Assembly: GCF_001884135.1 (NCBI RefSeq)
Contig: NZ_MAOC01000090.1
Location: 1 to 64,000 of the forward strand
Direction of reading: 5' to 3'
DNA: 64,000 bases
DNA from: Bacillus nitratireducens
GTDB lineage: Bacteria; Bacillota; Bacilli; Bacillales; Bacillaceae_G
Part shown: one piece after another, positions 42,530 through 56,446 of the stretch
How the letters are laid out: every line of letters starts with the position of its first letter
How positions within the stretch are numbered: the stretch's first letter is position 1
Made by a program: the position numbers and the translations under genes
Notes under the pieces: generated by a model
What the model saw: only the letters and a program-made list of their open reading frames with translations
Databases searched by the model: none
What the model was told of the DNA's origin: nothing

Positions 42530-42594
42530 ATTATAGGAAATATGATCGCCTGCAACTATCGAATTAGCTTACGGAAGACTTACACTTTTGTAAG
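42530..42594 (-). promoter_or_regulatory. BceR-like promoter of cassette A
   Basis: On the minus strand: CTTACA-AAAG-TGTAAG (42579-42594), 16 bp, TCGATAGT (42555-42562), 19 bp, -10 TATAAT (42530-42535). The palindrome fits TNACA-N4-TGTAA; a further GTAAG half-site lies in the 16-bp gap. Confidence 0.78.
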
Positions 42595-42623
42595 AAAAAA
42601 AGACATTCGTGTAAGAATGTCCT

Positions 42624-43490
42624 TCAAAGCATATTGATATGATGATGCTCTTCAATTGTTTTTAAAAAGCTACGCATTGAATTCGTCATATAGCTATCTT
42701 TACGGCGTATGAAAACCGTTGAAATACTACCGTATTTTTCAGGGATTGCATGACAATGTACCTTACCAGCTTTAGAAAGATGGTGGACAGCAGACTGCGG
42801 TACGAGTGTAATACCAAGGCCGAGTGCAACACTGTTTAGTATTGTTTCTAATATATTAAATTCCATAATTCTTTTTGGCAGCAAACCTTCATCTTTAAGC
42901 CAACGTTCTAGCTTGGAACGGTATCCACATCCTTGATTAAAAACGAGTAGGGGCGTCGTAGTGAATTCTTCTATATGAAAAGCTTTATTTTGTGTAACAA
43001 GCATTAGTTTTTCGGTACTAACATCGTATTGTTCAATTAGTGGATGTTTAATAGGCCCTGATATAAATGCACCATCTAATTGGTGATCGATTACTTCTCT
43101 AATAAGTTCTTCTGTTAGACCAGCTTGTAATGATAAATCAACATTTGGATAGCTCTTATAGTAAGAAGACAAAATGGTAGGCAATGTGCTTACTGTTTCG
43201 ACTGTACCAATTTTTAATATACCAGATGGTGTTTCGCTATCTAAAAACACTTGTTTTAGCTCTTCAACATCTTGCAAAATTTTATGAACATAAACGAGCA
43301 TTTTTCTTCCTTCAGCCGTTAAAGTCATGCCTCGTTTATGACGGTAAAAGAGCGGTGTTTTTAGCTCGTTTTCTAATTGTTTAATACGTGCGGTTACATT
43401 TGATTGTACGTAATTTAATTCCTTTGCTGCGCCACTTACACTACCTTGGTCGGCAACGCTCTGGAAGATTTGTAAGTCTCTTAATTCCAT
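42624..43490 (-). CDS. LysR family transcriptional regulator
   Basis: The 288-residue regulator has the N-terminal winged helix-turn-helix [20 protein letters not shown] and a LysR substrate-binding domain. It is divergent from an EamA-type transporter, which it probably regulates along with itself, through a 14-bp perfect inverted repeat between them. The start at 43490 follows AAGGAGG; an extension to 43520 has no ribosome site. The effector is unknown. It resembles the CysL/CitR-like clade in general form only. Confidence 0.9.
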
Positions 43491-43505
43491 AGTACGATCC
43501 TCCTT

Positions 43506-43540
43506 GATGTTAACTATCATTATAAGTGATAGTTAACATC
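43506..43540. promoter_or_regulatory. Palindromic operator between the LysR and EamA genes
   Basis: GATGTTAACTATCA (43506-43519) and TGATAGTTAACATC (43527-43540) form a perfect 14-bp inverted repeat with a 7-nt centre. Its position in a divergent LysR intergenic region suggests a LysR binding site. Confidence 0.72.
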
Positions 43541-43615
43541 ATTTTGAATCATTTTACGTGATATATTTTTTCTTTTACAATTCTCTTTGTGCAAATAGAA
43601 AGAAGCGGGGGGATT

Positions 43616-44587
43616 ATGGTGAGAAGAGGTCAAATGATAATAGGGGCTTTAGCATGTTTAATTGCAAGTATGTCATGGGGAGCAATGTTTCCGGTTGCTG
43701 ATCATGCGTTAGAATACATAGATCCATTTTATTTTTCACTTATTCGCTACGGAGCGGTGGCGATCGTATTGATTGTATTGTTGCTAATGAAAGAAGGTAA
43801 GAAGGCATTTCGCTTAGAGGGAAGAGGAAAGTTACTCGTCTTTTTTGGAACAATGGCGTTTACCGTATATAATGTATTAATTTTTCTAGGACAAATGTTA
43901 ATGGGGAAATCAGGTGTAATGGTAGCTTCTATTATGGAGGCGCTGATGCCGATGATTTCAATTTGTATTTTATGGGGATATAAAAATATAAAGCCGAAGA
44001 AGTATATGATAACGAGCATGATTATCGCGTTTGTAGGGGCTATATTTGTTATTACGAAAGGTGATATGAGTTTCTTTTTAACATTGAAAGATAACATGTT
44101 TTCGCTAGCATTTATATTTGTTGGTGTTGTAGGATGGGTAATTTATACGATGGGTGGTCAAACGTGTAGCGATTGGTCAACATTACGCTATTCTACTTTG
44201 ACGTGTGTATTGGGTACAACTGTCACAGGGATGATAACTGTAGTCATTACAGTGCTTGGATATGTATCTGTTCCAAGTATGGAAACGATTTCTATTGTGA
44301 AGTATGATTTGTTATTTATGATGACATTACCAGGTATCGTAGCACTACTTGCTTGGAACTACGGTGTGAAAATCTTATCATCCATTAATGGTATTTTATT
44401 TATTAACTTTGTGCCAATTACTACTTTAGTTATTATGATGATGCAAGGGTATAAAATAACAACATTTGATATTGTAGGAACATTATTTGTTATTGCAGCG
44501 CTTATTCGTAATAATGTTTGTCAGAGAAAAGAAGAAAATGCAAATAAACAAATGTTGCAAGAAAAGCAATTGCGCCAAGCTGTTTAA
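43616..44587 (+). CDS. EamA/DMT family transporter
   Basis: The 323-residue protein has ten membrane segments and two EamA repeats; the first begins LIASMSWGAMFPVADHALEYIDPFYFSLIRYG. DMT transporters of this kind usually export metabolites, often amino acids; the substrate is unknown. The GCGGGGGGA ribosome site favours the ATG at 43616 over the one at 43589. It lies 126 bp from the divergent LysR gene and 21 bp before a small membrane protein gene. Confidence 0.88.
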   Translation: MVRRGQMIIGALACLIASMSWGAMFPVADHALEYIDPFYFSLIRYGAVAIVLIVLLLMKEGKKAFRLEGRGKLLVFFGTMAFTVYNVLIFLGQMLMGKSGVMVASIMEALMPMISICILWGYKNIKPKKYMITSMIIAFVGAIFVITKGDMSFFLTLKDNMFSLAFIFVGVVGWVIYTMGGQTCSDWSTLRYSTLTCVLGTTVTGMITVVITVLGYVSVPSMETISIVKYDLLFMMTLPGIVALLAWNYGVKILSSINGILFINFVPITTLVIMMMQGYKITTFDIVGTLFVIAALIRNNVCQRKEENANKQMLQEKQLRQAV

Positions 44588-44608
44588 TAGGCAACTGGAG
44601 GATTTTAT

Positions 44609-44749
44609 ATGTTAGAAAGTTTATTGTTTTTCTTTGCTGCTGGAGTTGCCTGCGAGCTTGCGGCAATTAATCGAAACGGTCGTAAGAATATAAAACAACA
44701 AGCTGAATTGATACAGCTTTTAAGAGAATTGAAGGAAAGAAAAAATTAA
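44609..44749 (+). CDS. Small membrane protein (46 aa) downstream of the EamA gene
   Basis: The 46-residue protein has one N-terminal hydrophobic helix (MLESLLFFFAAGVACELAAI) and a charged coiled-coil-like tail ending LLRELKERKN. TGGAGG stands 9 nt before the ATG, and the gene lies between the EamA stop and a terminator, so it is cotranscribed. The single helix plus basic helix build suggests an accessory subunit, which is inference. Confidence 0.7.
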   Translation: MLESLLFFFAAGVACELAAINRNGRKNIKQQAELIQLLRELKERKN

Positions 44750-44783
44750 AAAGACGACCGGGCATAGACGGTCGTCTTTTTCT
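44747..44783. terminator. Bidirectional terminator after the EamA unit and cassette B
   Basis: AAAGACGACCG pairs with CGGTCGTCTTT around a short loop. A near-identical copy follows plsC at 45848. Confidence 0.88.
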
Positions 44784-44809
44784 ATATAAAGGGGAAAGGG
44801 GACACAAAG

Positions 44810-44905
44810 TTATACAAGCGTTGCGGCATAAATAAAAGCAGTAAGAAGAATTGATCCGCTAGCAAGTCCTAAAAAATCTAATTTGTTAAAAGTCAGGTTA
44901 TTCAT
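44810..44905 (-). CDS. Cassette B, second small membrane peptide (31 aa)
   Basis: The 31-residue peptide MNNLTFNKLDFLGLASGSIL... ends AFIYAATLV. AAGGAGA precedes the ATG. It differs from the cassette C copy at two positions only. It lies 12 bp after the first peptide of the cassette. The function is unknown. Confidence 0.75.
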   Translation of the reverse strand: MNNLTFNKLDFLGLASGSILLTAFIYAATLV

Positions 44906-44917
44906 TATAAATTCTCC

Positions 44918-45019
44918 TTACTTGTTTAATGTAGAAGCAACAGTTTTTGCATCGATAAGAGCGGAAAATACCATGCTCATTGTATGTAAGAAATTGTTTG
45001 ATTTCATTTTGTTCATCAT
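44918..45019 (-). CDS. Cassette B, first small peptide (33 aa, DAKTV variant)
   Basis: The 33-residue peptide begins MMNKMKSNNFLHTMSMV and continues FSALIDAKTVASTLNK. AAGGAG stands 8-9 nt before the ATG. It is a paralogue of the first peptides of cassettes A and C; changes are conservative and the frame is intact. Confidence 0.75.
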   Translation of the reverse strand: MMNKMKSNNFLHTMSMVFSALIDAKTVASTLNK

Positions 45020-45064
45020 ATAGATCCGCTCCTTTTCGAATGGTTGTTGTTACTTTCTGCCCTA

Positions 45065-45129
45065 ATTGTATAAGATAGTGGAGGAGGTCACTATCGAATT
45101 AGCTTACAATAAACTTACACTTTTGTAAG
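45065..45129 (-). promoter_or_regulatory. BceR-like promoter of cassette B
   Basis: On the minus strand: CTTACA-AAAG-TGTAAG (45114-45129), 16 bp, TCGATAGT (45090-45097), 19 bp, -10 TACAAT (45065-45070). Confidence 0.78.
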
Positions 45130-45241
45130 AATTGAAATTTAACAATAAATACTTATTTTTATTACCAACTCCTAAAACTTAGTGTTATAATCGTTGTAAG
45201 AAAATGATTATACTTCGGATATTCAGAAAGGAACGAAACAA

Positions 45242-45847
45242 ATGTATAAACCAATTACATTTTCGTTGAAATATATATTTAAAATGGCTGGGAAGGTAGA
45301 AGTGCAAGGGAGAGAGAAATTACCGGAAGATGGCCCTTACGTTGTTGCGTGTACACATACAAGTTTTATGGATGTTTTAATGTTAGCGGCAGGAATGTAC
45401 CCAACCCAAATTCATTACATGGCAAAAAAAGAATTGTTTGAAGGGAAATTTAAAAATTGGTTTTTTAAAAATGTAAATGCATTCCCTGTAGACCGTGCGA
45501 ATCCAGGGCCAAGCACATTGAAAATTCCATCGCGTTTATTAAAAGAGGGAAAGGTAGTAGGTATTTTCCCGAGTGGAACGAGATCATCAGAAGATGTTTC
45601 ATTAAAAGCTGGGGCTGTTACGATTGCAATGCGTTCTAACGTTCCATTAATACCAGCAGCTTATGTTGGTCCATCAAGTGTAAAAGAATTGATAAAAGGA
45701 AAAAAAGCGCAATTAGTTTTTGGAGACCCAATTCAAATTGATGCTGAAGAACAAATAGATCGAAAAACGGCTATGAAAATGATGACAGATCAATTAAATG
45801 AAAAGTTTGAAGAACTAAAGGAAGCTCTTCAATCAAATCAAAAGTAA
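45242..45847 (+). CDS. plsC: 1-acyl-sn-glycerol-3-phosphate acyltransferase (PlsC family)
   Basis: The enzyme transfers an acyl chain to lysophosphatidate to make phosphatidate, the second acylation in phospholipid synthesis. The 201-residue protein has the acyltransferase motif I HTSFMD (H-x4-D), FPVDR (motif II) and FPSGTRS (motif III; the usual Glu is Ser). The VPLIPAAYVGPS block is motif IV. AAAGGAA precedes the ATG. It lies alone between two peptide cassettes. Bacillus may have more than one PlsC-like protein, so the substrate is inferred. Confidence 0.9.
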   Translation: MYKPITFSLKYIFKMAGKVEVQGREKLPEDGPYVVACTHTSFMDVLMLAAGMYPTQIHYMAKKELFEGKFKNWFFKNVNAFPVDRANPGPSTLKIPSRLLKEGKVVGIFPSGTRSSEDVSLKAGAVTIAMRSNVPLIPAAYVGPSSVKELIKGKKAQLVFGDPIQIDAEEQIDRKTAMKMMTDQLNEKFEELKEALQSNQK

Positions 45848-45884
45848 GAAAAGACGACCGAGCATAGACGGTCGTCTTTTCTAT
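45846..45884 (+). terminator. Terminator after plsC
   Basis: AAAAGACGACCG pairs with CGGTCGTCTTTT around AGCATAGA, followed by T residues. Confidence 0.88.
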
Positions 45885-45899
45885 TACTATTTATATAAA

Positions 45900-46046
45900 G
45901 TGAAACTTTAATCAGTGGGGGTTTTGTTCATCCCCACTGATTATTAGCCCTCATCAATCGGGATTTTACAGGCAGTTGATCTCCCGCCTAACTTCCTCGC
46001 ATTCGCCGAATTCTGAGGTGGGAGTCTTACTGCCCGTTAAAGCGGG
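45900..46046 (-). repeat. bcr1-like repeat with ATAAA (TTTAT) target duplication
   Basis: This is a 147-bp element, minus orientation relative to the other copies. It is flanked by ATAAA at 45895-45899 and 46047-46051. Inner arms CCACTGATT and AATCAGTGG, and GGCAG/CTGCC-type arms, allow a long hairpin. The corresponding place next to cassette B (44786-44800) is uninterrupted. Confidence 0.85.
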
Positions 46047-46070
46047 ATAAAGGGGAAAGGGGACACAAAG

Positions 46071-46166
46071 TTACACAAGCGTAGCAGCGTAAATGAAAGC
46101 AGTAAGAAGAACCGAGCCGCTAGCAAGTCCTAAAAAATCTAATTTGTTAAATGTGATGTTGTTCAT
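46071..46166 (-). CDS. Cassette C, second small membrane peptide (31 aa)
   Basis: The 31-residue peptide MNNITFNKLDFLGLASGSVL... ends AFIYAATLV. AAGGAGA precedes the ATG. It is a paralogue of the second peptides of cassettes A and B, with an intact frame. The function is unknown. Confidence 0.75.
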   Translation of the reverse strand: MNNITFNKLDFLGLASGSVLLTAFIYAATLV

Positions 46167-46178
46167 AATATATTCTCC

Positions 46179-46280
46179 TTACTTGTTTAATGTAGAAGCA
46201 ACAGCTTTTGCATCGATAAGAGCAGATAATACCATGCCCATTGTGTTTAAGAAATTGTTTGATTTCATTTTGTTCATCAT
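46179..46280 (-). CDS. Cassette C, first small peptide (33 aa, DAKAV motif)
   Basis: The 33-residue peptide begins MMNKMKSNNFLNTMGMV and continues LSALIDAKAVASTLNK. AAGGAG stands about 10 nt before the ATG. It is the most consensus-like member of the three paralogous first peptides. Confidence 0.75.
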   Translation of the reverse strand: MMNKMKSNNFLNTMGMVLSALIDAKAVASTLNK

Positions 46281-46327
46281 ATTAGATCCGCTCCTTTTCG
46301 AATGGTTGTTGCTCTGTTTCTGACTTA

Positions 46328-46392
46328 ATTGTATGAAATATAGCGGAGAGTCACTATCGAATTAGCTTACAGGAAAATTACACTTTTGTAAG
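46328..46392 (-). promoter_or_regulatory. BceR-like promoter of cassette C
   Basis: On the minus strand: CTTACA-AAAG-TGTAAT (46377-46392), 16 bp, TCGATAGT (46353-46360), 19 bp, -10 TACAAT (46328-46333). Confidence 0.78.
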
Positions 46393-46472
46393 AAAAACGA
46401 ATGAAGGTGTCATGATGAGAAGATTTGACATATGTTCATGTGATTTATTAAGTTAAAAGTAGAGGTGAGTGT

Positions 46473-47450
46473 ATGGCTAATATTAAAGATATTGCAAAGA
46501 TGGCTGGGGTTTCAGTTACGACTGTTTCGAGGGTATTAAATGATCATCCATATGTAAGTGAAGAAAAAAGGAAAGTTGTTTTAGAAATAGTTGAGAAATT
46601 GAATTACTCACAAAATGCAAATGCTGTTCATTTATCAAAAGGGAAGACGAATATTGTTGGTGTGATTTTACCTTATATTAATCATCCGTGTTTTGATGCA
46701 ATGGTGGGTGGAATGATGGACGTTGCGTTAGCTCATAATTACAGGGTGCTTCTTTGTCAAACGAATTACAATAAAAAAGAAGAAATGAAAAGTTTACATA
46801 TGTTGAAAACAAAGCAACTAGATGGTTTGATCATTTGTTCTCGTGCGAATGAGTGGGAAATTATAGAGCCTTATGCAGCGTATGGGGCGGTTATTGCTTG
46901 TGAGGATAATGATATTGAAAGTATATCGAGTGTATATACAGATCACTTTAATGCCTTTCAATTAGGGATGAGTTACCTTATTGAAAAAGGTTATAAGAAG
47001 ATTGGATATTGTACGGGAAGAAAGTTAGGACCAAGTAGTAAGAAACGTTTTGATGCGTATAAACAACAGCTACAATTAATAGATGAAGAAGTGATGGAAG
47101 ATTGGATTTTCACAGAATGCTTTACATTAGAAGATGGTGTAAGAGTTGCGCATCAATTTAAGGAGATGGAGAATCCGCCTGAAGCATTAATAGTGGCAGG
47201 AGATGAGGTCGCTATTGGGATCATGACAGAAGTTAATAAACTAGGTATTAAAGTTCCTGAAGATTTAGCGATTATTGGTTTTGATAATCAACCGATTTCT
47301 CAAGTTTTACAACTGACAACTATTGACCAAAATTTAAAGGAAATAGGTAAGACGGCTTTTGAAATGTTTTACAGACGAGTGAGTGATGAGGGTTCTAAAC
47401 AAGAAAAGATGGAAATTCCGTATAAACTTGTGGAACGCTCTACAGTTTAG
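46473..47450 (+). CDS. LacI family transcriptional regulator
   Basis: The 325-residue regulator has the LacI helix-turn-helix at the N-terminus (IKDIAKMAGVSVTTVSRVLN) and a type I periplasmic-binding-like effector domain, with VGVILPYINHPCFDAM at its start and GFDNQPISQVLQLTTIDQ near its end. It is a single gene with its own terminator. No sugar uptake gene is adjacent, so its target and effector are not evident. AGAGGTGAG precedes the ATG. Confidence 0.9.
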   Translation: MANIKDIAKMAGVSVTTVSRVLNDHPYVSEEKRKVVLEIVEKLNYSQNANAVHLSKGKTNIVGVILPYINHPCFDAMVGGMMDVALAHNYRVLLCQTNYNKKEEMKSLHMLKTKQLDGLIICSRANEWEIIEPYAAYGAVIACEDNDIESISSVYTDHFNAFQLGMSYLIEKGYKKIGYCTGRKLGPSSKKRFDAYKQQLQLIDEEVMEDWIFTECFTLEDGVRVAHQFKEMENPPEALIVAGDEVAIGIMTEVNKLGIKVPEDLAIIGFDNQPISQVLQLTTIDQNLKEIGKTAFEMFYRRVSDEGSKQEKMEIPYKLVERSTV

Positions 47451-47451
47451 C

Positions 47452-47492
47452 GATAATCCGTTATGTGTATAATCACATAACGGATTATTTTT
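47452..47492 (+). terminator. Terminator after the LacI-type gene
   Basis: AATCCGTTATGTG pairs with CACATAACGGATT around a short loop, followed by ATTTTTT. Confidence 0.9.
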
Positions 47493-47502
47493 TGAAATGT
47501 CT

Positions 47503-47531
47503 TTGACAGGAAACGCATTTCATACTTTATA
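47503..47531 (+). promoter_or_regulatory. Promoter of the PH-domain gene
   Basis: TTGACA (47503-47508), 17 bp, TTTATA (47526-47531). The spacer holds an imperfect palindrome GAAACG/CATTTC that could be an operator. Confidence 0.65.
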
Positions 47532-47610
47532 AAAGAGTTACACCGGTTTGTAATAATCCATGGATTCTTTTCAAGTGTTAAAGCAATGAATAGAATTTGG
47601 AGGGATATGT

Positions 47611-47940
47611 ATGAATGAACTTTTATTAAGTATGAAAAAGTATGTAGAGGATGATGAACAAATTTTAGCATTTGTGATAGGGATATTTGAGAAAGATGAT
47701 TTTACCTTATCATATCGGCATGGGATTTTCGTTGCTACTACTAGACGTCTCCTCTTTTATGGAGAAATTCCGTACTATCCATCAACATTTGAAGTGTATT
47801 CGTATTTGCATATAGATGACATAAATTTTCATCCGCAATTAGTGTTTACTTGTAATCAGGAAACGGTAACAGCTAAGTATATTCAGAAAGGTAATGTGGA
47901 GCGATTTGTCCGTACAGTTAGAGCGAATATGAATAATTAA
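47611..47940 (+). CDS. Small PH-domain protein (YokE-like bacterial PH)
   Basis: The 109-residue protein has the bacterial PH-like pattern ILAFVIGIFEKDD, then GIFVATTRRLLFYGEIPY and FHPQLVFTCNQETVTAKYI, a beta-rich fold closed by a C-terminal helix. It is probably cytoplasmic and its role is unknown. TTGGAGGGA stands 8 nt before the ATG. Confidence 0.72.
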   Translation: MNELLLSMKKYVEDDEQILAFVIGIFEKDDFTLSYRHGIFVATTRRLLFYGEIPYYPSTFEVYSYLHIDDINFHPQLVFTCNQETVTAKYIQKGNVERFVRTVRANMNN

Positions 47941-48057
47941 TCACCCCTTTGTTTAAACATAATATCTTGGTCTTTGTGAGGAAAAATGCGGAATAAAAAC
48001 AACTTCTAAACCTCTAGGAGATAGTGATACAATGTCAAATGGGGGGAGGTATGAACT

Positions 48058-48894: not shown

Positions 48895-48927
48895 AAGGTG
48901 AACGAGTAAATTCGTTCGCCTTTTTTA
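48893..48927 (+). terminator. Terminator after the yitT-like gene
   Basis: AAAGGTGAACGA pairs with TCGTTCGCCTTT around GTAAAT, followed by T residues. Confidence 0.88.
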
Positions 48928-48930
48928 ATT

Positions 48931-48995
48931 CTTACAAAAATGTAAGTGTAATGTAATGAGATTCAATAGTAGATTTTATTCCTTCTTTTTAAAAT
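48931..48995 (+). promoter_or_regulatory. BceR-like promoter of the yxeA-like gene
   Basis: CTTACA-AAAA-TGTAAG (48931-48946), 16 bp containing further TGTAAT half-sites, TCAATAGT (48963-48970), 19 bp, -10 TAAAAT (48990-48995). It has the same layout as the peptide cassette promoters. Confidence 0.75.
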
Positions 48996-49032
48996 GGATG
49001 TATATATATCCTGCGGAGGAGGAATGTTTAGT

Positions 49033-49389
49033 ATGAAGAAAAAGATGATCACTACTATAATAGCGATGATAGTGATAGTAGTAATGTTACTGCCTACGAA
49101 ACTTGGACCAGTTATAGATAAATATAATCCACTTTATAAGACGAAAGAATATTATACGGTTGTGAATACAATTGGTCAGCATATTGGTGATGAATGGTAT
49201 GAATATGAATTTATTGCATTTGACGAACGTGGAAAAGAACAAAAAATAAAGAAGACCGTTAAGCATATGTTAAAGAGAGATGAAGCATTAAAAGTGTATG
49301 CAAAAGGACGCTACGGCGAGACGATTGAAGAAATTGAAGCTGTAAATATTCCTATTAATGCGAAGAGTAAACTTTTAACGACGAGATAG
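49033..49389 (+). CDS. YxeA family protein (DUF1093)
   Basis: The 118-residue protein has one N-terminal membrane segment or signal (about residues 5-19). A YxeA/DUF1093 domain follows, with YYTVVNTIGQH, YEYEFIAFDERGKEQKI and LKVYAKGRYGETIEEIEAV. In B. subtilis yxeA belongs to the yxdLM-yxeA operon under the YxdJ response regulator, a BceR relative, which agrees with the BceR-like site ahead of this gene. AGGAGG stands about 10 nt before the ATG at 49033; the ATG at 49024 is also possible. Confidence 0.82.
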   Translation: MKKKMITTIIAMIVIVVMLLPTKLGPVIDKYNPLYKTKEYYTVVNTIGQHIGDEWYEYEFIAFDERGKEQKIKKTVKHMLKRDEALKVYAKGRYGETIEEIEAVNIPINAKSKLLTTR

Positions 49390-49393
49390 CGGA

Positions 49394-49450
49394 TTATACC
49401 CCCACCTATTTTTTGTCGAAAATAAAAATACTAGGTAGGGGTATTTTGAA
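49394..49450 (+). terminator. Terminator after the yxeA-like gene
   Basis: ATACCCC-ACCTA pairs with TAGGT-GGGGTAT around an A/T-rich loop, followed by TTTT. Confidence 0.72.
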
Positions 49451-49457
49451 GCGTATG

Positions 49458-49495
49458 AAAAAGCCTTAGTCCATATGGACTAAGGCTCTTTTTAT
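49458..49495. terminator. Second, probably bidirectional terminator
   Basis: GCCTTAGTCC-ATAT-GGACTAAGGC is flanked by A and T runs. It stands where cassette D transcription would end. Confidence 0.85.
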
Positions 49496-49504
49496 TATAT
49501 AAAG

Positions 49505-49616
49505 GGGAAGGGGGTACATTGTAGTAGCATGAGTGAAAGGTATAAGAAGAGCCGGCTACTAGCAATGTAATTTGGTTATGTGAGTGTTCTTCTTATTTGG
49601 CTTACTTTCTAACTTT
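49505..49616 (-). pseudogene. Decayed peptide cassette D
   Basis: Downstream of an intact BceR-like promoter, the minus strand keeps a degraded version of the second-peptide gene. ATTGCTAGTAGCCGGCTCTT corresponds to CTTGCTAGCGGCTCGGTTCT of cassette C, and the AAAGGGGAAGGGG tail also matches. The first peptide is missing and no frame is open. Confidence 0.65.
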
Positions 49617-49681
49617 ATTGTACGAAATATAGGTAAGGGAAACTATCGAATTACATTACACATAGCTTACAAACATGTAAG
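49617..49681 (-). promoter_or_regulatory. BceR-like promoter of decayed cassette D
   Basis: On the minus strand: CTTACA-TGTT-TGTAAG (49666-49681), 16 bp, TCGATAGT (49642-49649), 19 bp, -10 TACAAT (49617-49622). The palindrome is shared with the opposite promoter. Confidence 0.72.
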
Positions 49682-49730
49682 CCTTCTGTAATGTAATTCG
49701 ATGGTTAATAGATAGTGAATTTCATATAGT
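49666..49730 (+). promoter_or_regulatory. BceR-like promoter reading toward the candidate small RNA
   Basis: The same palindrome (49666-49681) read on the plus strand, 16 bp, TCGATGGT (49698-49705), 19 bp, -10 TATAGT (49725-49730). Confidence 0.72.
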
Positions 49731-49736
49731 GTAACT

Positions 49737-49839
49737 AGAAAGTCTCACTGTATTACTTTCTGTTTGTAATGTTAATGAAGAATAAAAAACCAACTAATTT
49801 TGAATAGCCCTCATCTCTATTTAGATGAGGCTCTTTTTT
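49737..49839 (+). ncRNA. Candidate small RNA (~100 nt) between a BceR-like promoter and a terminator
   Basis: The segment between the -10 at 49725-49730 and the terminator AGCCCTCATCT/AGATGAGGCT (49806-49832) plus T run has no ORF with a ribosome site; the longest ATG frame is 12 codons. A GAAAGT/ACTTTC hairpin lies at the 5' side. It may be a small RNA or a deleted peptide gene. Confidence 0.45.
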
Positions 49840-49843
49840 AAAC

Positions 49844-49908
49844 CTTACAACATTGTAAGGTTTACGTAAGTTAATTCGATAGTAATTTTGTCATATTTTT
49901 TGCATAAT
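49844..49908 (+). promoter_or_regulatory. BceR-like promoter of the 37-residue peptide gene
   Basis: CTTACA-ACAT-TGTAAG (49844-49859), 16 bp, TCGATAGT (49876-49883), 19 bp, -10 CATAAT preceded by TG (49901-49908). Confidence 0.78.
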
Positions 49909-49963
49909 AGATACAAATAGATAAAAAATAATTAGGGATATAGTAAGAAGGGAGAAAACTGGG

Positions 49964-50077
49964 ATGCGTAAAGAAGAAGTAGTGAAGTTTCCAATTAAAG
50001 ATTTCTGTAGCTACTTTACTGTTGCCATAGTATGTATTGGATTATTTGATATAATAACAAATTTAATTGTTAACTAA
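49964..50077 (+). CDS. Small membrane peptide (37 aa) under a BceR-like promoter
   Basis: The 37-residue peptide begins MRKEEVVKFPIKDFCSYF and has one hydrophobic helix (TVAIVCIGLFDIITNLIV). AAGGGAG stands about 9 nt before the ATG, and a terminator follows at once. It is unrelated in sequence to the DAKAV peptides but shares their promoter layout. The function is unknown. Confidence 0.7.
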   Translation: MRKEEVVKFPIKDFCSYFTVAIVCIGLFDIITNLIVN

Positions 50078-50087
50078 TATAGATGAT

Positions 50088-50118
50088 AAAACAAGAAGGG
50101 AGACCCTTTCTTGTTTTT
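50088..50118 (+). terminator. Terminator after the 37-residue peptide gene
   Basis: ACAAGAAGGG-AGA-CCCTTTCTTGT (one bulge) is followed by eight T residues. Confidence 0.82.
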
Positions 50119-50135
50119 TTTATGGGGGCATAAAG

Positions 50136-50969
50136 ATGAAATGGATTGATAGCCATATACATGTTGATCAATATGAGAATGAAGAGAAAAGTAGATTACT
50201 TATAGATGTGGAAAACAGTAAAGAGATACAAGGGCTTATTGCAGTATCTATGAATTATCAATCATGCCTAGAAACTTTATCTTTAGCAAAGCGATATCCT
50301 TTTGTACATCCAGCAATAGGTTTTCATCCGGAGCAACCGATTCATAAAGAGGAATGTGAGCAAATTTATAAATTAATTGAAGATCATGTAGAGAAAATCG
50401 TTGCGATTGGTGAAGTGGGCTTGCCATATTATTTAAGGAAAGAAGATGAAAATATTGCTATCGATCCATACATAGCGGTGTTAAAAAAGTTTGTGGAACT
50501 AGCTAGTAAATACGATTTACCAATTATATTGCATGCGGTTTATGAAGATGCTGACACTGTATGTGATTTTCTTGAAGAATATAAAGTTTCACGTGCACAC
50601 TTCCACTGGTTTAAAGGGAGTGAAGAGACAATGAAACGGATGATGAGGAACGGTTATTATATTTCTATCACACCGGATGTTTTACATAAGGAGAAAATTA
50701 GAAAAATCGTTTCGTATTATCCGCTTGAATATATGATGGTAGAAACAGATGGCCCATGGGAATTTCAAGAGGGTGTTATGACGCATCCGACAATGATTCG
50801 AGAGGTATTAAAGGAAATTAGTGTTATAAAAAACATATCTGTTGATGAGGTTACAGAAACAATATACGAAAATACAATTCAATTTTACCCCGCATTAACG
50901 GGCAGTAGGACCCCCACCTCAAAGTTCAGTGAAAGTAGAGAAGTTAGGCGGGGGTCGGGCTGTCCGTAA
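50136..50969 (+). CDS. TatD family metal-dependent hydrolase, C-terminus replaced by repeat sequence
   Basis: The 277-residue protein is a TatD-type hydrolase (metal-dependent DNase family) with its ligands in place: DSHIHVD at the start, GEVGLPYY, LHAVYED, HFHWFKG and TDGPWEF. The last 27 residues (from Tyr251) are encoded by an inserted bcr1-like repeat, so the natural end has been replaced by TGSRTPTSKFSESREVRRG-type sequence. The core domain seems complete. The start at 50136 follows GGGGG by 7 nt; an upstream ATG at 50067 overlaps the previous terminator and is rejected. Confidence 0.88.
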   Translation: MKWIDSHIHVDQYENEEKSRLLIDVENSKEIQGLIAVSMNYQSCLETLSLAKRYPFVHPAIGFHPEQPIHKEECEQIYKLIEDHVEKIVAIGEVGLPYYLRKEDENIAIDPYIAVLKKFVELASKYDLPIILHAVYEDADTVCDFLEEYKVSRAHFHWFKGSEETMKRMMRNGYYISITPDVLHKEKIRKIVSYYPLEYMMVETDGPWEFQEGVMTHPTMIREVLKEISVIKNISVDEVTETIYENTIQFYPALTGSRTPTSKFSESREVRRGSGCP

Positions 50970-51036
50970 AAGCTCGATTGGTGAAGGCTAATAATCAATG
51001 GGGGATGAACAAAACCCTTACTGATTAAAGTTTCAC
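50889..51036 (+). repeat. bcr1-like repeat inside the 3' end of the TatD-type gene
   Basis: A 148-bp element is flanked by TTTAC (50884-50888) and TTTAT (51037-51041), an imperfect 5-bp duplication. It starts CCCGCATTAACGGGCAGTAG and ends CTGATTAAAGTTTCAC, like the other copies. Confidence 0.85.
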
Positions 51037-51149
51037 TTTATTCGAAAGGATAGGAGAGTCACTCTTATCCTTTTTGTTATGGATATTTTTTCTAATATTT
51101 TCTATAATTTATCATATGTTTAATTTGATGAAGGAAGCAGGGGGAGAAA

Positions 51150-52664
51150 ATGGGGGAAGCATATAAAAAGATAGCTATTACGATTATGACCGGAGCGCTG
51201 TCGCTTGCGATGTTTGGGTGCGAATCAGAAAAAAAGGCGACAAATACAAACGTAGCACAAGAAAATAAGGAAGAACAAGTGGATCCAATAGTTGAAAAAC
51301 AGATGAAAGAAAATGAGAAAAATGGGAATGCAGTTGGAAATAGTTCTAACAAAGGAAAAATGGCAGAGAGTAATGGATGGATTTACTATGCGGTAAATGG
51401 TGATAAAAATACAGGAGGCATTTATCGTACGAAGGATCAATTTCAAACATCAGAACTTGTAGTAAAAGGTGTGGATGCTTCTTACATAAATATAAAAAAT
51501 AAATCTTTATATTTTATTCATACAGATGAAGATAGAAATGCGGGACTATCTTCTTTAATGAAGTATGATATATCTTCTAAAAAGCTGGATACGTTAAAAG
51601 CAGATACAAATTATGTTTATATAAAAGACCAAACGTTATTTTACCAGAAAAAGTATTCTGAACATGGTGGTTTTGATATTGTAGGGATTGTAAAAATGGA
51701 TTTGAAAACAGGGCAAGAAGAGGAAGCTGCATTTAAAAACTCTGGCTGGTCTCGAACGATAGACGATAGTATTCTACATTGGAATAAAAATCGTGGAACA
51801 CAAGTGACAAAAGACAATCAAACTTGGTCAAAAGAAAGTTATGCAACAATATCTAGTGCGACTTATAATAATGAAAAATTATATGCTGTTGTTGATTTTT
51901 CGTTACCTTTTGAAGTAAATCAAGCTGAGCATGGTATATATGAGATAGACACTCAACAAAATAATGAAAAGTTATTGGTAAAGGACGCCTTGCAAATGAA
52001 TGTGAAAGGTGATACTTTTTATTACTTGAAAAATGATGGAGTGTATAAGAAGAAAATTAATGGTGGAAATGAAAAGGTAATTTATAATAAAGCAATAGAG
52101 CCAACTAAATCCTATTTATATTTTGTAGCAGGAGATATGTATCTCTATACAGATAATGGAACTATTTTGAATCTAGATACAAAGAAATCAAATGAAGTAC
52201 AAGATAAGAAGCTAGCAGATGACGCTATGTTACAGAAAGTATGGAATGCACAGAAGGAACTTACCAATATTCAAATGGCCGCACTAACAGGAAACCCAAA
52301 ACGAGTAGAGGATTTTTCATACGGGGAATTAGTGAATCCTATTTATAATACGAAGGATACTTTAGAGATTACGCTATCTACGTACTTCTCAAAATCATTT
52401 ATAGCAGAGTATATGAAGAGTAAGTATATTAAAGAGTTAAATGGAAAAATGCACTATGTTATTGGAGATCCAGGGTCAAGAGCAGGAACTAAATTTACAA
52501 AAATTATTTCTGCCGAGTTAAAGGATGGAAAAATAAAAGCGCAGGTAGAAACGTATAATGACTATGATAATGTAACGGAAAAGGTAGAAGTTGAATTTAT
52601 TTATGAAAATAATCAATGGGTTATTAATAACATGCCGCGTTTTGGTTTTATATTAGGATTCTAA
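51150..52664 (+). CDS. Putative lipoprotein with DUF5050-like propeller
   Basis: The 504-residue protein has a lipoprotein signal (lipobox LAMFGC, Cys24) and a charged linker. A region of repeated beta units follows (NGWIYYAVNG, KSLYFIHTDED, DQTLFYQKKY, GDTFYYLKNDGVYKK), typical of DUF5050-type beta-propellers. The last 125 residues look like a separate NTF2/IseA-like domain, DTLEITLSTYFSKSFIAEYM to EFIYENNQWVINNM; the IseA (DL-endopeptidase inhibitor) resemblance is tentative. GGGGGAGA precedes the ATG. The 3' end overlaps the convergent DUF2334 gene by 12 bp. Confidence 0.72.
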   Translation: MGEAYKKIAITIMTGALSLAMFGCESEKKATNTNVAQENKEEQVDPIVEKQMKENEKNGNAVGNSSNKGKMAESNGWIYYAVNGDKNTGGIYRTKDQFQTSELVVKGVDASYINIKNKSLYFIHTDEDRNAGLSSLMKYDISSKKLDTLKADTNYVYIKDQTLFYQKKYSEHGGFDIVGIVKMDLKTGQEEEAAFKNSGWSRTIDDSILHWNKNRGTQVTKDNQTWSKESYATISSATYNNEKLYAVVDFSLPFEVNQAEHGIYEIDTQQNNEKLLVKDALQMNVKGDTFYYLKNDGVYKKKINGGNEKVIYNKAIEPTKSYLYFVAGDMYLYTDNGTILNLDTKKSNEVQDKKLADDAMLQKVWNAQKELTNIQMAALTGNPKRVEDFSYGELVNPIYNTKDTLEITLSTYFSKSFIAEYMKSKYIKELNGKMHYVIGDPGSRAGTKFTKIISAELKDGKIKAQVETYNDYDNVTEKVEVEFIYENNQWVINNMPRFGFILGF

Positions 52665-54302
52665 TTTTTTCGCACGTCTTAATAATAAAAGAAAGACAAT
52701 TATAATGAACCCAATTATAAGGAAGAACCCATATTGTTTTATATAATCCATTATGTCATTCGCACTTGTTGGTTTTTCAACGTGAATGCCGTCTTTATTA
52801 GTAGTAATATAAATATCTTTCATTTTTACTTCATTCGTTTCTTTTTGTAAATTAATCCACTCTATGTTTGGAATGCTTTCCAGTTCTTTTAATACTTCTT
52901 TTAATGGTGTAACACCTAAGTAAGGGTGATAAAATGCACCGATAATTCCATCGGATAATTTTTCGATAGATACAGCACGTTCTTTCATTTTTGCTATAGC
53001 TTGTGGTTTATCCCCTTCAATAAAGCCAACAGTTTCAGGAATTAATTTCATCCCATGTAAAAATGACGGTGTACTTATATAAGCCGGTGAGTGCATTGAT
53101 TTCCAAGTTGTATCGTTTAGTTGTAGTTGTCCTACATAAGTTGAAAAATATTGTGATAGTATTTCATATCCTTTTTGAGACATTGTATAGTGCGGAGCCT
53201 CAAAGGCAACTGGATATAATTTCGCTTCTACAAGCTCTGTAATCCCTTTTTCAATATGATCTTTCGTATATTTTTCTTCGAAGGCTTTTCCGTTTTCTAC
53301 GTATTTATTATAGTCTTCTGTAGACTGAAAATCTTCTTTTGTCTTGGGTTTTTCATGGTTTGGTTGGCGAATTGGTTGATCTGTTTTTACATCCCAAAAC
53401 TCAAAACCTTCGCCAGTTTCACTATCATAAAACTGATGGGTGTAACCATGCATAACGATAGAACCGCCGTTATCTTGCATAAAGCGTAAAACATCGACTA
53501 ATTCAGAGTTATCCTTTAAATGTACTGTTTTTCCTGTGTCGGGATCTTTGTAAACAGGGATAACAGTAATCATATAAGGAAGGTTTTTCTCTTTTAGTAA
53601 TTCAGCAATTTCTTTTAATTGCTTTACATTTACAGCTGGATGAACGTCTTCAAGACGTAAATAAGCTGAAGTTTTATTTGTCATCGGCTTTTGTTCAAAG
53701 TAAGAAAATAGCATTTCACCGACGTAATGAGACATCCAATCGAAAAGGTTTGGAGTTGCAACGTAATATGATGTTCCTTGGTGAACGATTAACGGATGGT
53801 TTCCATCGGCACTCAAGGCATAAGCAAGAGTTGTTCCTTTTGCTTCAATTTTCTTCATTAAGCGTTCTTCTTGTAATTCATTTTTTAATTTGCGTGTCGG
53901 ATATTCTATAGTATGAGTTCGTATATCAGTTTCATCCGAGGTAATGAACGAAAAACGATTAGATAATTGCTCAACATTTTGACCTAAAACTAATACTGGA
54001 CCTGAGAAGCTTTCCAGAAATTGTTTTACTTCAGTAGAAAGATCTTCTTTTTTCTCTCCTATATAAACGATATGTGTATAAGAAGATGAGTTAGTAATTT
54101 CATTTATCTCTTTTAAACTTTTTACTGTTATATCTTTTGTAAAGTGCCCTAACTGAGTATTAAGGATTTGTACATTGTTTGTAACTGTATTATTTTCTGT
54201 ACTATATAAAATAAGTACCTTTGGTTTTGATGATGTTTGTGCGGATGTGTGTACAGGTATGAGTAGTAAAATACTGAACAAGAGTATTAGGCATTTTTTC
54301 AT
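52653..54302 (-). CDS. DUF2334 (polysaccharide deacetylase-like) membrane-anchored protein
   Basis: The 549-residue protein has a cleavable-type signal (about residues 1-21, ending HTSAQT) and a DUF2334 domain related to polysaccharide deacetylases: AYLRLEDVHPAV, IVMHGYTHQFYDSETGEGFEFWD and AFEAPHYTMS. A C-terminal membrane anchor follows (YGFFLIIGFIIIVFLLLLRRAKK). It would act outside the cell on an unknown carbohydrate. AGGAG stands 8 nt before the ATG at 54302. The frame runs on upstream to 54413 without a ribosome site. Confidence 0.85.
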   Translation of the reverse strand: MKKCLILLFSILLLIPVHTSAQTSSKPKVLILYSTENNTVTNNVQILNTQLGHFTKDITVKSLKEINEITNSSSYTHIVYIGEKKEDLSTEVKQFLESFSGPVLVLGQNVEQLSNRFSFITSDETDIRTHTIEYPTRKLKNELQEERLMKKIEAKGTTLAYALSADGNHPLIVHQGTSYYVATPNLFDWMSHYVGEMLFSYFEQKPMTNKTSAYLRLEDVHPAVNVKQLKEIAELLKEKNLPYMITVIPVYKDPDTGKTVHLKDNSELVDVLRFMQDNGGSIVMHGYTHQFYDSETGEGFEFWDVKTDQPIRQPNHEKPKTKEDFQSTEDYNKYVENGKAFEEKYTKDHIEKGITELVEAKLYPVAFEAPHYTMSQKGYEILSQYFSTYVGQLQLNDTTWKSMHSPAYISTPSFLHGMKLIPETVGFIEGDKPQAIAKMKERAVSIEKLSDGIIGAFYHPYLGVTPLKEVLKELESIPNIEWINLQKETNEVKMKDIYITTNKDGIHVEKPTSANDIMDYIKQYGFFLIIGFIIIVFLLLLRRAKKLES

Positions 54303-54549
54303 TTTGTGTGCTCCTATTCTATATGTAGAATTCAATTTACAATTATATACAAGAAATAAGTTATAGTCCATGTAAGTTACATTTTTGCACGTATTTACCA
54401 ACTGTTTTTTCACAAAATCGGTCTAAAGCATGATGATAATATGTATAGTAATTTGCTATGATGGAAGAGTAAGAGAACGATAGAATGTAGGTAATTGTAA
54501 AGGGAAAGCTGAAAGGGGACAAATTTCAGCGGAGAAAGAGGTAGAGGTA

Positions 54550-55083
54550 GTGAAGAAATTCTTTGTAGGATTTTTAGTTGTTCTTGGAGTGTATTTATAT
54601 TTCCAAGAGAAGTCTGAAGGAATGGATAAACTAATAAATGAGACAAGCTATGTTGATTCAGAGGAAGCAAAACAGATGAAACAAATTATTATAGAGGAAG
54701 CAAAGAAAGTAAACCTTCCAGAATGGATACCTCTTACAATTGCCGAACATGAAAGTAGGCTAAATCCAAGAAGTGTTGGAGATAACGGAACTTCATTCGG
54801 ATTGTTTCAATTGCACCGCGGTGGTGGGCTTGCACCGGATAATTTAACTGATGAAGAGTTGAAAGATCCGCGTACAAATGCGCAAATTGCAATGCCACAC
54901 TTACTGAAAGGGTATAAGCGCGGGGTGCAAAAGGGTTTGACTGATTTTGCATTACTGAAATATATAGCAAATACATCAGGATGGCCAGGGAATCTAGGGC
55001 CAGAGTGGACGGATAACAATATGAAGTATAACGTTGGATTAGAAGATGTATATTATCGGAATAAAGGCGTAATAAAAGAGTAG
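54550..55083 (+). CDS. Lytic transglycosylase-like (SLT domain) protein
   Basis: The 177-residue protein starts with a short N-terminal hydrophobic segment (about residues 4-18). A transglycosylase SLT/lysozyme-like domain follows: IAEHESRLNPRSVGDNG (the Glu in HES is the likely catalytic acid), GTSFGLFQLHRGGGLAP and MPHLLKGYKRGV. It probably cleaves peptidoglycan glycan strands at the membrane surface. The GTG start follows AAGAGGTAGAGG. It ends at a terminator shared with the facing gene. Confidence 0.82.
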   Translation: MKKFFVGFLVVLGVYLYFQEKSEGMDKLINETSYVDSEEAKQMKQIIIEEAKKVNLPEWIPLTIAEHESRLNPRSVGDNGTSFGLFQLHRGGGLAPDNLTDEELKDPRTNAQIAMPHLLKGYKRGVQKGLTDFALLKYIANTSGWPGNLGPEWTDNNMKYNVGLEDVYYRNKGVIKE

Positions 55084-55114
55084 GTTTTCGACACCTACTC
55101 TATTTTTTTATGAA
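55080..55114. terminator. Bidirectional terminator
   Basis: AGAGTAGG-TTTTCGACA-CCTACTCT is followed by ATTTTTTT on the plus strand, between convergent genes. Confidence 0.88.
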
Positions 55115-55889
55115 TAATTTTGTCTTCTTGTTTCATGAAATATTGCGCTAGTTGTATTTTCACCTCTTCTAGTTTTGTAGAAACTTGTGGTATTTTATAT
55201 CCTACATACAATGGTGAAACGACAAACCTAGGAACAACTTTACAAATGATTTTTCCATTTAGATGATAGAAGAATAAGTTATAACTACTACATCCTTTAT
55301 GGAAATCTGTCAGTATGTAACGTACAGTTTGCTGAATATAATTTGCCATTTCATCTATAAATGCAATATCTTCAATGACTATGTTAAATTCAGTAAAGCC
55401 AATAATAGGACGCTCTGAAATATTGAGTTCAATACGTTCGTTTTTTTGTACAATTACTCCTTGGAAATTTTCCTTTTCTACGTTTTCGAGATAGTCTACA
55501 TATTTCATTCCGATAATTTGCATGTGTGCATGGTGCAAACTGCCACCTGAAAATGGACCATGATTTTTATATAAAATCACAGATGCAAATTCCTCGTTAT
55601 TCTGTAAGTTTAACCAATGGTGAATAGAGAAACGAATTAGTTTTCTCATATGTTCTTCTGTATATGTTCCGATATGATCTTCACAATTATCTGTTTCGAT
55701 TAGCACTGTTTGAAAGGTATCTTTTAATGTAGGGAATTTATTTTTTAACCAAATAATAGAGCCCTCAGCTGCTAAAATATCCGTTAAATTTTCTCTGTCA
55801 CAAAAAGGACATGCAGCGCTTCTGTTCCGAATGCTTTCTGGTTTTTGTTTACCGATATCGTTTAAAAAATATAGTTGTTGTGTATCCAT
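55095..55889 (-). CDS. DUF4931 / GalT-like HIT-fold protein
   Basis: The 264-residue protein resembles galactose-1-phosphate uridylyltransferases. A CPFCDREN zinc-type motif lies near the N-terminus and the histidine motif SLHHAHMQIIG takes the place of the GalT HPHxQ nucleophile loop. It is shorter than GalT and fits the DUF4931 group; a nucleotidyl-transfer role is plausible but unproven. The start at 55889 (MDTQQLYF) is preceded by AAAGGGG at a rather long 11 nt; the frame extends upstream to 56003. Confidence 0.78.
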   Translation of the reverse strand: MDTQQLYFLNDIGKQKPESIRNRSAACPFCDRENLTDILAAEGSIIWLKNKFPTLKDTFQTVLIETDNCEDHIGTYTEEHMRKLIRFSIHHWLNLQNNEEFASVILYKNHGPFSGGSLHHAHMQIIGMKYVDYLENVEKENFQGVIVQKNERIELNISERPIIGFTEFNIVIEDIAFIDEMANYIQQTVRYILTDFHKGCSSYNLFFYHLNGKIICKVVPRFVVSPLYVGYKIPQVSTKLEEVKIQLAQYFMKQEDKIIHKKIE

Positions 55890-55974
55890 TTGTATATATG
55901 CCCCTTTAAAATATGTGTAAAAATCCCGCTTAATACATTCGGGAAAAGGAGGAGGAAATCCTTTAAAGGGAATA

Positions 55975-56038
55975 GGGAAAAATAAAAGACAAGATATCCT
56001 CATTACAATAGGGTACCTTGTCTTTTATTTTTTCTTCA
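55975..56038 (-). terminator. Terminator of peptide cassette H
   Basis: AATAAAAGACAAG arms pair over an imperfect inner stem around 55990-56020. The 5' arm covers the end of the third peptide gene. Confidence 0.8.
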
Positions 56039-56147
56039 ATAGTGTGTATGGATAATATAGAGCATTTGCATTTTGTTTCTTTTTTCTATTTTTTATTGTG
56101 TATAAGGCAATTGCCGTACTTGCGATTACAATAATGGCTTTCTTCAT
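56025..56147 (-). CDS. Cassette H, third peptide (40 aa, one membrane helix plus basic tail)
   Basis: The 40-residue peptide begins MKKAIIVIASTAIALYTI, a single hydrophobic helix, and continues with a basic tail (KNRKKKQNANALYYPYTLL). AAAAGGGG stands 9 nt before the ATG at 56147; an ATG at 56153 is closer. It is the last gene of the three-peptide cassette and ends inside the terminator hairpin. The function is unknown. Confidence 0.68.
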   Translation of the reverse strand: MKKAIIVIASTAIALYTIKNRKKKQNANALYYPYTLLKKK

Positions 56148-56163
56148 ATTCATATACCCCTTT

Positions 56164-56241
56164 TTATTGTTGGTTTAATTCTTGGCTAACTGCTTTTGCG
56201 TCGACTAAAGCGTGTAAAATCATTTTCACCATGTTCATCAT
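56164..56241 (-). CDS. Cassette H, second peptide (25 aa, DAKAV motif)
   Basis: The 25-residue peptide begins MMNMVKMILHALVDAKAV and ends SQELNQQ. The segment ALVDAKAVxxxLN matches the first peptides of cassettes A-C, though this version lacks their KSNxFLxTM stretch. AAAGGAGTGAAGG precedes the ATG. It follows the first peptide by 16 bp. Confidence 0.72.
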   Translation of the reverse strand: MMNMVKMILHALVDAKAVSQELNQQ

Positions 56242-56257
56242 ATTCCTTCACTCCTTT

Positions 56258-56338
56258 TTATAGTTCGTTTAGTTCTTTTACAACTGCTTGTCCGTTCACT
56301 AATACCTCAAAGATTGCTTTTACGATTTCTTTCATCAT
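56258..56338 (-). CDS. Cassette H, first peptide (26 aa, NGQAV variant)
   Basis: The 26-residue peptide begins MMKEIVKAIFEVLVNGQAV and ends VKELNEL. It is a divergent member of the same family: the pattern LVNGQAVxxELN replaces LVDAKAVxxxLN. AAGGAGG stands 9 nt before the ATG. It is the first gene after the BceR-like promoter. Confidence 0.72.
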   Translation of the reverse strand: MMKEIVKAIFEVLVNGQAVVKELNEL

Positions 56339-56381
56339 AATTGTTTTCCTCCTTGTTTTTGTCTCTCTTGTTTATACCTTT

Positions 56382-56446
56382 ATTGTATAGGGAGGCATCT
56401 TTTCGTACTATCGCTTTCCATTACGTGAACATAACAGTTTTGTAAG
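56382..56446 (-). promoter_or_regulatory. BceR-like promoter of cassette H
   Basis: On the minus strand: CTTACA-AAAC-TGTTAT (56431-56446), 16 bp, GCGATAGT (56407-56414), 19 bp, -10 TACAAT (56382-56387). The right palindrome half is weaker than in the other copies. Confidence 0.72.

Follow-up and report, generated by a model that had tools for sequence, protein, structure and literature searches.

The 64-kb stretch analysed here (the window; contig NZ_MAOC01000090.1 of Bacillus nitratireducens, positions 1 to 64,000, 35% GC) contains rocF, cdaA, ybbR, glmM and glmS, followed by opp and mod genes, all named by reading of the open reading frames (ORFs). By the same reading, this gene order and the encoded proteins indicate a chromosome of the Bacillus cereus group. 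Between 42 and 57 kb the window carries eight promoter-like sites of one rigid design, five of which precede ORFs for short peptides. At their upstream end is a palindrome of the form TNACA-N4-TGTAA, which is the palindrome of promoters regulated by BceR-type response regulators. The absence of transporter genes behind the promoters and of regulator genes from the window was judged by reading ORFs by eye; Pfam and NCBIfam scans took in nine window proteins.

Architecture of the eight promoters

All eight sites share a 65-bp layout: CTTACA-N4-TGTAAG, 6 bp, GTAA, 6 bp, TCGATAGT (with single changes), 19 bp and a TATAAT-like -10 hexamer. An earlier, sequence-only reading of this DNA had claimed eight such promoters, and each was located at the position given. 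The claimed gaps of 16 bp and of 19 bp to the -10-like hexamer proved exact in 8/8 sites, and the extra GTAA reported in the 16-bp gap was present at a fixed position in every one. The claim for the palindrome held with one exception, since TNACA-N4-TGTAA fits seven of the eight sites and the site at 56431 is one base off (CTTACA-N4-TGTTAT). A pattern search for CTTACA-N4-TGTAAG returned five perfect palindromes and one with a single change, as compared to 0.22 expected in shuffles; the seventh, at 56431, has the imperfect right arm TGTTAT.

The sites were scored with a 24-base template derived from the eight window sites themselves, and obtained 24, 24, 24, 24, 23, 23, 23 and 21 of 24. The ninth-best place across the 64 kb scored 17/24, and 60 first-order Markov versions of the window reached a maximum of 19, with a mean of 0.083 matches scoring at least 18. 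Because the template was written from these sites, the scores show clustering rather than provide an independent test. When the first gap was altered by -4 to +4, no site scored at least 20 at any of the eight shifts; the same alteration of the second gap gave none at seven shifts and two at +4.

The half-sites TGTAAG, (T/C)GTAA and TCGATAG lie in direct orientation at 11-bp steps, approximately one helical turn, and the last of them occupies the -35 position, where a good -35 was not seen. This spacing, together with the lack of a good -35, would fit an activator that covers the -35 region. GTAA (8/8) and the TCGATAGT-like element (8/8), at fixed distance between the palindrome and the -10, form a candidate second, weaker site. 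A sigma-70 promoter scan stayed at shuffle level (35 found vs 35.5 expected) and was uninformative on the eight promoters. The three cassettes that encode DUF3948 peptides are duplicates, so the eight sites do not represent eight independent cases, and independent evidence comes from other genera.

The layout at Bce-type operons and in viral contigs

A BceB relative was matched in 53 plasmid records; our sample of Bce operons took 9 of these, chosen for spread of genera and similarity, together with the provirus-flanking locus L036. The resulting 10 loci contain 11 ABC operons whose permease is BceB-like. The control, for which each locus was shuffled by mononucleotide in five pairs and scored on one strand, gave maxima of 14-18. 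The layout scored at least 20/24 just upstream of 6/11 operons: Niallia taxi (24), L036 (23), Priestia L072 (21), Bacillus arachidis (21 and 20) and Paenibacillus (21). In most of these promoters a -10-like hexamer stands 19-20 bp past TCGATAGT, less clearly so in the first B. arachidis operon. At three more of the 11 operons (Listeria L075, Pseudalkalibacillus L076 and Priestia L078) the corresponding place holds the palindrome with one mismatch. The L078 locus, where the YxeA, response regulator, histidine kinase and BceAB genes are neighbours, holds the register both at bceA (17/24) and at the YxeA gene (17/24), scores that by themselves lie within the shuffle range. At L036 the layout lies directly ahead of an ATPase gene and a gene for a 638-aa permease. 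The order in Niallia is response regulator, histidine kinase, layout, ATPase and permease, and the solved relatives of this permease include PsdB (4e-77), which is closer than BceB (1e-28). Response regulator and histidine kinase genes adjoin the layout-bearing operon in three of the six cases (L072, L073 and L077). The B. arachidis plasmid carries two BceAB-type operons, each with a layout (L074:3784-3823 and 7032-7071), and its permease at L074:8001-9953 matches both PsdB and BceB. No response regulator or histidine kinase was annotated there within the 18 kb fetched (the PLSDB annotation is incomplete), so these layouts offer a parallel for control from a distance.

The assignment to BceR-type regulators made by the sequence-only reading is supported in part, namely for the promoter architecture: in other genera, BceAB/PsdAB-type operons have the whole layout, and not the palindrome alone, directly ahead of them, and so has a YxeA gene in L008. 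Its occurrence at these operons indicates that BceR/PsdR-type regulons use this form of promoter in several genera of Bacillales, and the BceR-type reading is well supported at the level of DNA.

Viral contigs scanned with TTACA-N4-TGTAA-N7-GTAA-N6-TYRATRGT gave 33 stretches, which form 8 sequence groups and so are not 33 families. The same scan gave none with the last gap one base shorter and none with the palindrome arms swapped; in genome contigs the one-base-shorter gap, used as a shifted-gap control, matched two unrelated stretches (L001 and L002). In seven near-identical groups (32 loci) the layout precedes one ORF, which in L013 has 161 aa, and at the one locus of the other group (L008) it lies ahead of a YxeA-family gene (TIGR01655, E 5.4e-16) of the same family as window ORF 49033-49389. 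A scan with variable gaps found 67 stretches. The 33 with the window gap were 32 of the earlier 33 loci and L036 before its ABC operon; of the other 34, 27 were two bases shorter, 1 one base shorter, 4 one base longer and 2 two bases longer, all on contigs whose names are of metagenome type, many being copies of a few viral sequences. A loosened pattern again gave 33 stretches, gaining only L036 and losing L027, and a BceB alignment in viral contigs once more returned the L036 contig alone. The right half of the pattern found 33 stretches by itself, 32 of them with TTACA-N4 ahead; the sole match without it, L071 (GC 0.50), looks unrelated and was rejected.

At L013:791-4253, a prophage border and the one of the 32 loci that was examined further, the layout (1476-1514) lies between a bacteriocin precursor of the heterocycloanthracin/sonorensin type (TIGR03601, E 1.1e-39) and a 161-aa ORF that had no match in Pfam or NCBIfam. 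Further on are a pPIWI_RE_X-domain protein of 233 aa and an ORF that, on reading, resembles a phage integrase.

Genes and peptides under the window promoters

The sequence-only reading also held that most of the promoters drive peptides of 25-37 residues. This applies to 5/8 sites, one of which has a 42-residue ORF as well; the other three precede a 118-aa YxeA-family protein, an apparently decayed DUF3948-like copy and no recognisable ORF, respectively. The features are listed in Table 1.

The cassettes at 42.5, 45.1 and 46.4 kb, which are 75-90% identical in DNA, each encode an amphipathic 33-mer (A peptide, charge +3 to +4) and then a 31-33-residue hydrophobic peptide (B peptide). The B peptides are neutral and purely hydrophobic, and both copies scanned, B42 and B46, belong to DUF3948 (PF13134; curated cut-off 25 bits). 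Sites resembling Shine-Dalgarno (SD) sequences were found at 6/6 cassette peptide ORFs. In 6/6 paralogue pairs the nonsynonymous proportion (pN, 0.04-0.21) was below the synonymous one (pS, 0.11-0.60; ungapped), for which reason these ORFs look coding and selected as protein.

The 25-mer C56b is 52% identical to the 33-mer A46 over 23 residues (E 2e-8, single comparison), and its alignment score with each of the three A peptides exceeded 5000/5000 shuffles. C56a, a 26-mer, likewise exceeded 5000/5000 shuffles against C56b, and was more weakly related to the A peptides directly (3, 36 and 50 of 5000 shuffles reached the score). On these alignments we call the A peptides, C56a and C56b one putative family, here named LVDAKAV; it matched nothing in Pfam or NCBIfam. 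The maximum helical moment of the A and C56a/b peptides is 0.43-0.68. No family above cut-off was found in the same two databases for the 37-mer. The YxeA-family protein scored 52.3 bits against TIGR01655 (cut-off 29.65, E 7.6e-14) and E 2.3e-13 against PF06486, with the longer ORF 48994-49389 scanned, and it has solved DUF1093 relatives.

Table 1. Promoter layouts, peptide genes and neighbouring features of the window
Feature	Position	Strand	Evidence
BceR-type promoter layout 24/24, ahead of cassette A42/B42	42555..42594	-	template score, alignment
Peptide A42, 33 aa, amphipathic, charge +4, putative LVDAKAV family	42381..42482	-	SD-like GGAG, pN<pS vs paralogues
Peptide B42, 33 aa, DUF3948 (PF13134)	42267..42368	-	E 2e-17, 63 bits
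BceR-type promoter layout 24/24, ahead of cassette A45/B45	45090..45129	-	template score, alignment
Peptide A45, 33 aa, putative LVDAKAV family	44918..45019	-	paralogue comparison
Peptide B45, 31 aa, DUF3948-like	44810..44905	-	close paralogue of B46, outside family scan
Terminator-like hairpin after B45	44781-44748	-	
BceR-type promoter layout 23/24, ahead of cassette A46/B46	46353..46392	-	template score, alignment
Peptide A46, 33 aa, putative LVDAKAV family	46179..46280	-	paralogue comparison, alignment to C56b
Peptide B46, 31 aa, DUF3948	46071..46166	-	E 5.9e-13, 48.7 bits
BceR-type promoter layout 23/24, ahead of YxeA-family gene	48931..48970	+	template score, alignment
YxeA-family protein, 118 aa, start = ATG following GGAGGAGG	49033..49389	+	family scan
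BceR-type promoter layout 24/24, palindrome shared with 49666..49705 site	49642..49681	-	template score, alignment
Apparently decayed DUF3948-like cassette, frame lost	49486..49600, limits approximate	-	by eye from alignment
BceR-type promoter layout 23/24, opposite direction, no recognisable ORF	49666..49705	+	template score, alignment
Terminator-like hairpin downstream of 49666..49705 promoter	49809-49830	+	
BceR-type promoter layout 24/24, ahead of 37-aa peptide	49844..49883	+	template score, alignment
37-aa hydrophobic peptide	49964..50077	+	SD-like GGGAG
Terminator-like hairpin after 37-aa peptide gene	50088-50117	+	
BceR-type promoter layout 21/24, right arm TGTTAT, ahead of C56 peptides	56407..56446	-	template score, alignment
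Peptide C56a, 26 aa, strongly amphipathic, related to C56b	56258..56338	-	
Peptide C56b, 25 aa, related to A46 (52% over 23 aa)	56164..56241	-	
Peptide C56c, 42 aa, one hydrophobic stretch, strongly positive C-terminal half, charge +10	56025..56153	-	

The apparently decayed cassette has 58-63% local DNA identity to the intact ones, and the 56-kb locus shows about as much; it retains a perfect 24/24 promoter layout. The plus-strand stretch that follows the 49666..49705 promoter and ends at its hairpin had no ORF of note and no Rfam match, and an Rfam scan of 41000-57500 found nothing. Repeats D1, I2 and I4 (42-76 nt) overlie promoters.

Relatives of DUF3948, of the A peptides and of the 8.2-kb region were sought in plasmids and none were found; YxeA, searched by protein in viral contigs, plasmids and phages, and the cassette DNA, searched in plasmids and phages, gave no relatives. 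One unrelated genome (G001) contained neither the DUF3948 nor the YxeA family. Among 14 control genomes DUF3948 was found in none and YxeA in two, Bacillus subtilis and Lactococcus lactis.

Elsewhere in the window, a dispersed repeat occurs in two inverted copies (45932-46051/50884-51003, 120 nt at 78%; 45895-45935/51001-51041, 41 nt at 95%). The TatD-like ORF 50067-50969 is entered at its 3' end by the copy near 50884-51003, which gives it a C-terminus of foreign appearance. The ORF at 20593-21126 reads as a short MFS-type protein (177 aa), perhaps a truncated efflux pump.

Proposed regulation and its alternatives

Taken jointly, it is likely that the eight sites are promoters of a BceR/PsdR-type peptide-antibiotic regulon whose regulator lies elsewhere, and that the peptides are protective or accessory in function. 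The single shared layout is consistent with a local regulon with its regulator outside the window. We infer the identity of the regulator, the inducer and the function of the peptides, all three. In the proposed mechanism, peptide antibiotics bound by a BceAB/PsdAB-type transporter would activate a small-loop histidine kinase, and a dimer of the phosphorylated response regulator, of the OmpR family, would occupy CTTACA-N4-TGTAAG at about -71 to -56. A second dimer would then take the weaker direct half-sites GTAA and TCGATAGT, in 11-bp steps, reaching the -35 region, and the bound regulator would recruit RNA polymerase, the promoter itself offering a -10 but lacking a good -35. The output would be multi-copy cassettes of leaderless, membrane-active peptides of 25-42 residues (DUF3948 and LVDAKAV), together with the 37-mer and the YxeA-like secreted protein. 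Under peptide attack the peptides may insert in the membrane and act there as stabilisers or, like VraH with VraDE, as modulators of a Bce-type transporter. A protective or accessory role is our first choice because of VraH in VraDE, of the YxeA-like proteins in Bce modules and of the lack of any bacteriocin or modulin family match.

Several observations weigh against this interpretation. Reading of the ORFs showed no BceAB-type transporter gene behind any of the eight promoters, so the sites would be additional targets rather than a Bce module. ORF reading found no response regulator or histidine kinase gene in the window, and no complete BceRSAB module (response regulator, histidine kinase, ATPase and permease) was seen by eye among its ORFs of at least 120 aa. 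In the three operons with the one-mismatch palindrome (L075, L076 and L078) the downstream half is weak or absent, and the best scores for the full layout, 15, 15 and 17, fall within the shuffle range. The L076 operon is a hybrid, in which an ATPase is combined with two short permeases and an FtsX-like one, and by eye its spacing seems shorter by one base. Two of the 11 operons (L079 and L080) are without such a site; both belong to the same type of lanthipeptide cluster, found in two strains, whose response regulator is diverged and in which the gene pair lies inside a longer operon. In B. cereus G9241, the rise of DUF3948 transcripts followed the loss of plasmid pBCX01 rather than antibiotic stress (PMC10196113). 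Finally, we infer both binding and expression at the eight window promoters from their DNA.

With the same regulation, the peptides might instead be secreted weapons, leaderless bacteriocins or peptides like phenol-soluble modulins, that are released when a competitor's peptide antibiotic is sensed. We give this a minor but real chance. The peptides of 25-33 residues are amphipathic and have no evident leader, several are encoded per operon and in several operons, and the L013 layout adjoins a heterocycloanthracin-type bacteriocin precursor at a prophage border; however, no bacteriocin or modulin family was matched in the Pfam and NCBIfam scans of the nine window proteins, the B peptides lack charge and are purely hydrophobic, and ORF reading found no export or immunity gene beside the cassettes. 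A regulatory function under the same control, in which the peptides tune the sensor kinase or transporter by negative or positive feedback or serve as signals, has in our view a small probability. Several different short hydrophobic peptides under one control would suit it, and removal of the YxeA-like protein YsaD changed signalling in Lactococcus (PMC7438565). The high copy number and divergence of the cassettes nevertheless fit an effector better than one feedback loop.

The regulator might also be of another kind, an OmpR-family protein that recognises TGTAA repeats in the manner of the tandem repeats of WalR or PhoP. Such regulators favour directly repeated sites at 11-bp steps, and TGTAAG, GTAA and TCGATAG stand in direct orientation at these steps. 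We regard this as very unlikely, as the layout lies at bceAB operons, in three of six cases beside a response regulator and histidine kinase, and shifted-gap matches numbered zero in viral contigs. Mere shared ancestry of a duplicated cassette, with no regulatory meaning of the layout, would agree with the near identity of the three DUF3948 cassettes, and other sites may have spread by duplication, given the repeats over promoters. We can credit it with hardly any probability, since the downstream genes differ (YxeA, 37-mer and C56 peptides) and the same bases stand before different genes in other genera; it is weakened by the matches from Niallia, Priestia and Paenibacillus.

Returning to a BceR/PsdR-type regulon with protective or accessory peptides, the promoter form is one known at pumps, and we read as its novel part that the local output appears to be mostly small membrane peptides. 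The broader proposition, that a BceR/PsdR-type system commands mainly multi-copy leaderless membrane peptides and not a pump, as a peptide defence arm for shielding or striking back, has about an even chance of being correct. It would give the LVDAKAV peptides and DUF3948, a Pfam family without known function that is rarely named in the open literature, a regulator class and a testable physiological setting. The compact 65-bp signature could serve in finding BceR-type targets far from bceAB. The findings also suggest that a Bce-type system, which is usually pictured with a single pump for each sensor, can command a whole set of small membrane peptides.

Among the literature matches listed, which mostly leave subscription journals outside their coverage, no link of DUF3948 or the window peptides to BceR-type regulation was found. 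In B. cereus G9241, the transcripts that rose most when pBCX01 was lost came from five adjacent DUF3948 genes (PMC10196113). These are possible counterparts of the window genes, with which they share the Pfam family, and give strongly variable short transcripts. In ATCC 14579, enterocin AS-48 raised BC0223 by 2.2-fold and BC0227 by 2.0-fold, each described as a 'hypothetical protein' with one transmembrane segment (PMC2774856). BC0202 and BC0204 are two efflux pumps (PMC5417439), and BC0215 and BC0216 two OppA proteins (PMC13185565). By named function, not by sequence, these anchors (BC0202, BC0204 and BC0215/BC0216) correspond to window genes near 20.6, 23.0 and 32-35.5 kb. This would place BC0223 and BC0227, candidate counterparts of genes there, near 41-47 kb of the window; the two rises are small. 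Extra Bce-like modules are described for B. cereus and B. anthracis.

VraH, the small membrane protein of VraDE in Staphylococcus aureus, is needed for resistance to gallidermin, not to nisin or bacitracin, and has a positive C-terminus; C56c, compared by build alone, is similarly constructed (PMC5786555). Unlike VraDEH, the C56c operon has no transporter. Members of the YxeA family are parts of Bce-type modules, YxdJK-YxdLM-YxeA in B. subtilis and YsaDCB/TCS-G in Lactococcus (PMC7438565). The window likewise encodes such a protein, whereas its gene stands alone with its own promoter. The ApsR/PsdR sites of Lacticaseibacillus paracasei are AnnTTACnAnnnnGTnAG, and by eye 5/8 window sites match their core, TTACnAnnnnGTnAG. 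The L. paracasei regulon is multi-target, as that of the window would be, but its targets comprise derAB, mprF, dlt and psdAB instead of the small peptides of the window (PMC10858260).

The B. subtilis promoters PbceA and PpsdA share with the window sites a palindrome with a 4-bp centre. For BceR and PsdR targets of B. subtilis, Fang et al. 2017 reportedly described a main site that a linker joins to a second, weaker one ahead of the promoter, with hierarchical binding of the main and secondary sites, and in this layout, too, the window sites would be alike. In contrast, PbceA and PpsdA drive the transporter beside their regulator, whereas the eight window promoters are mostly placed before peptides, with the regulator elsewhere.

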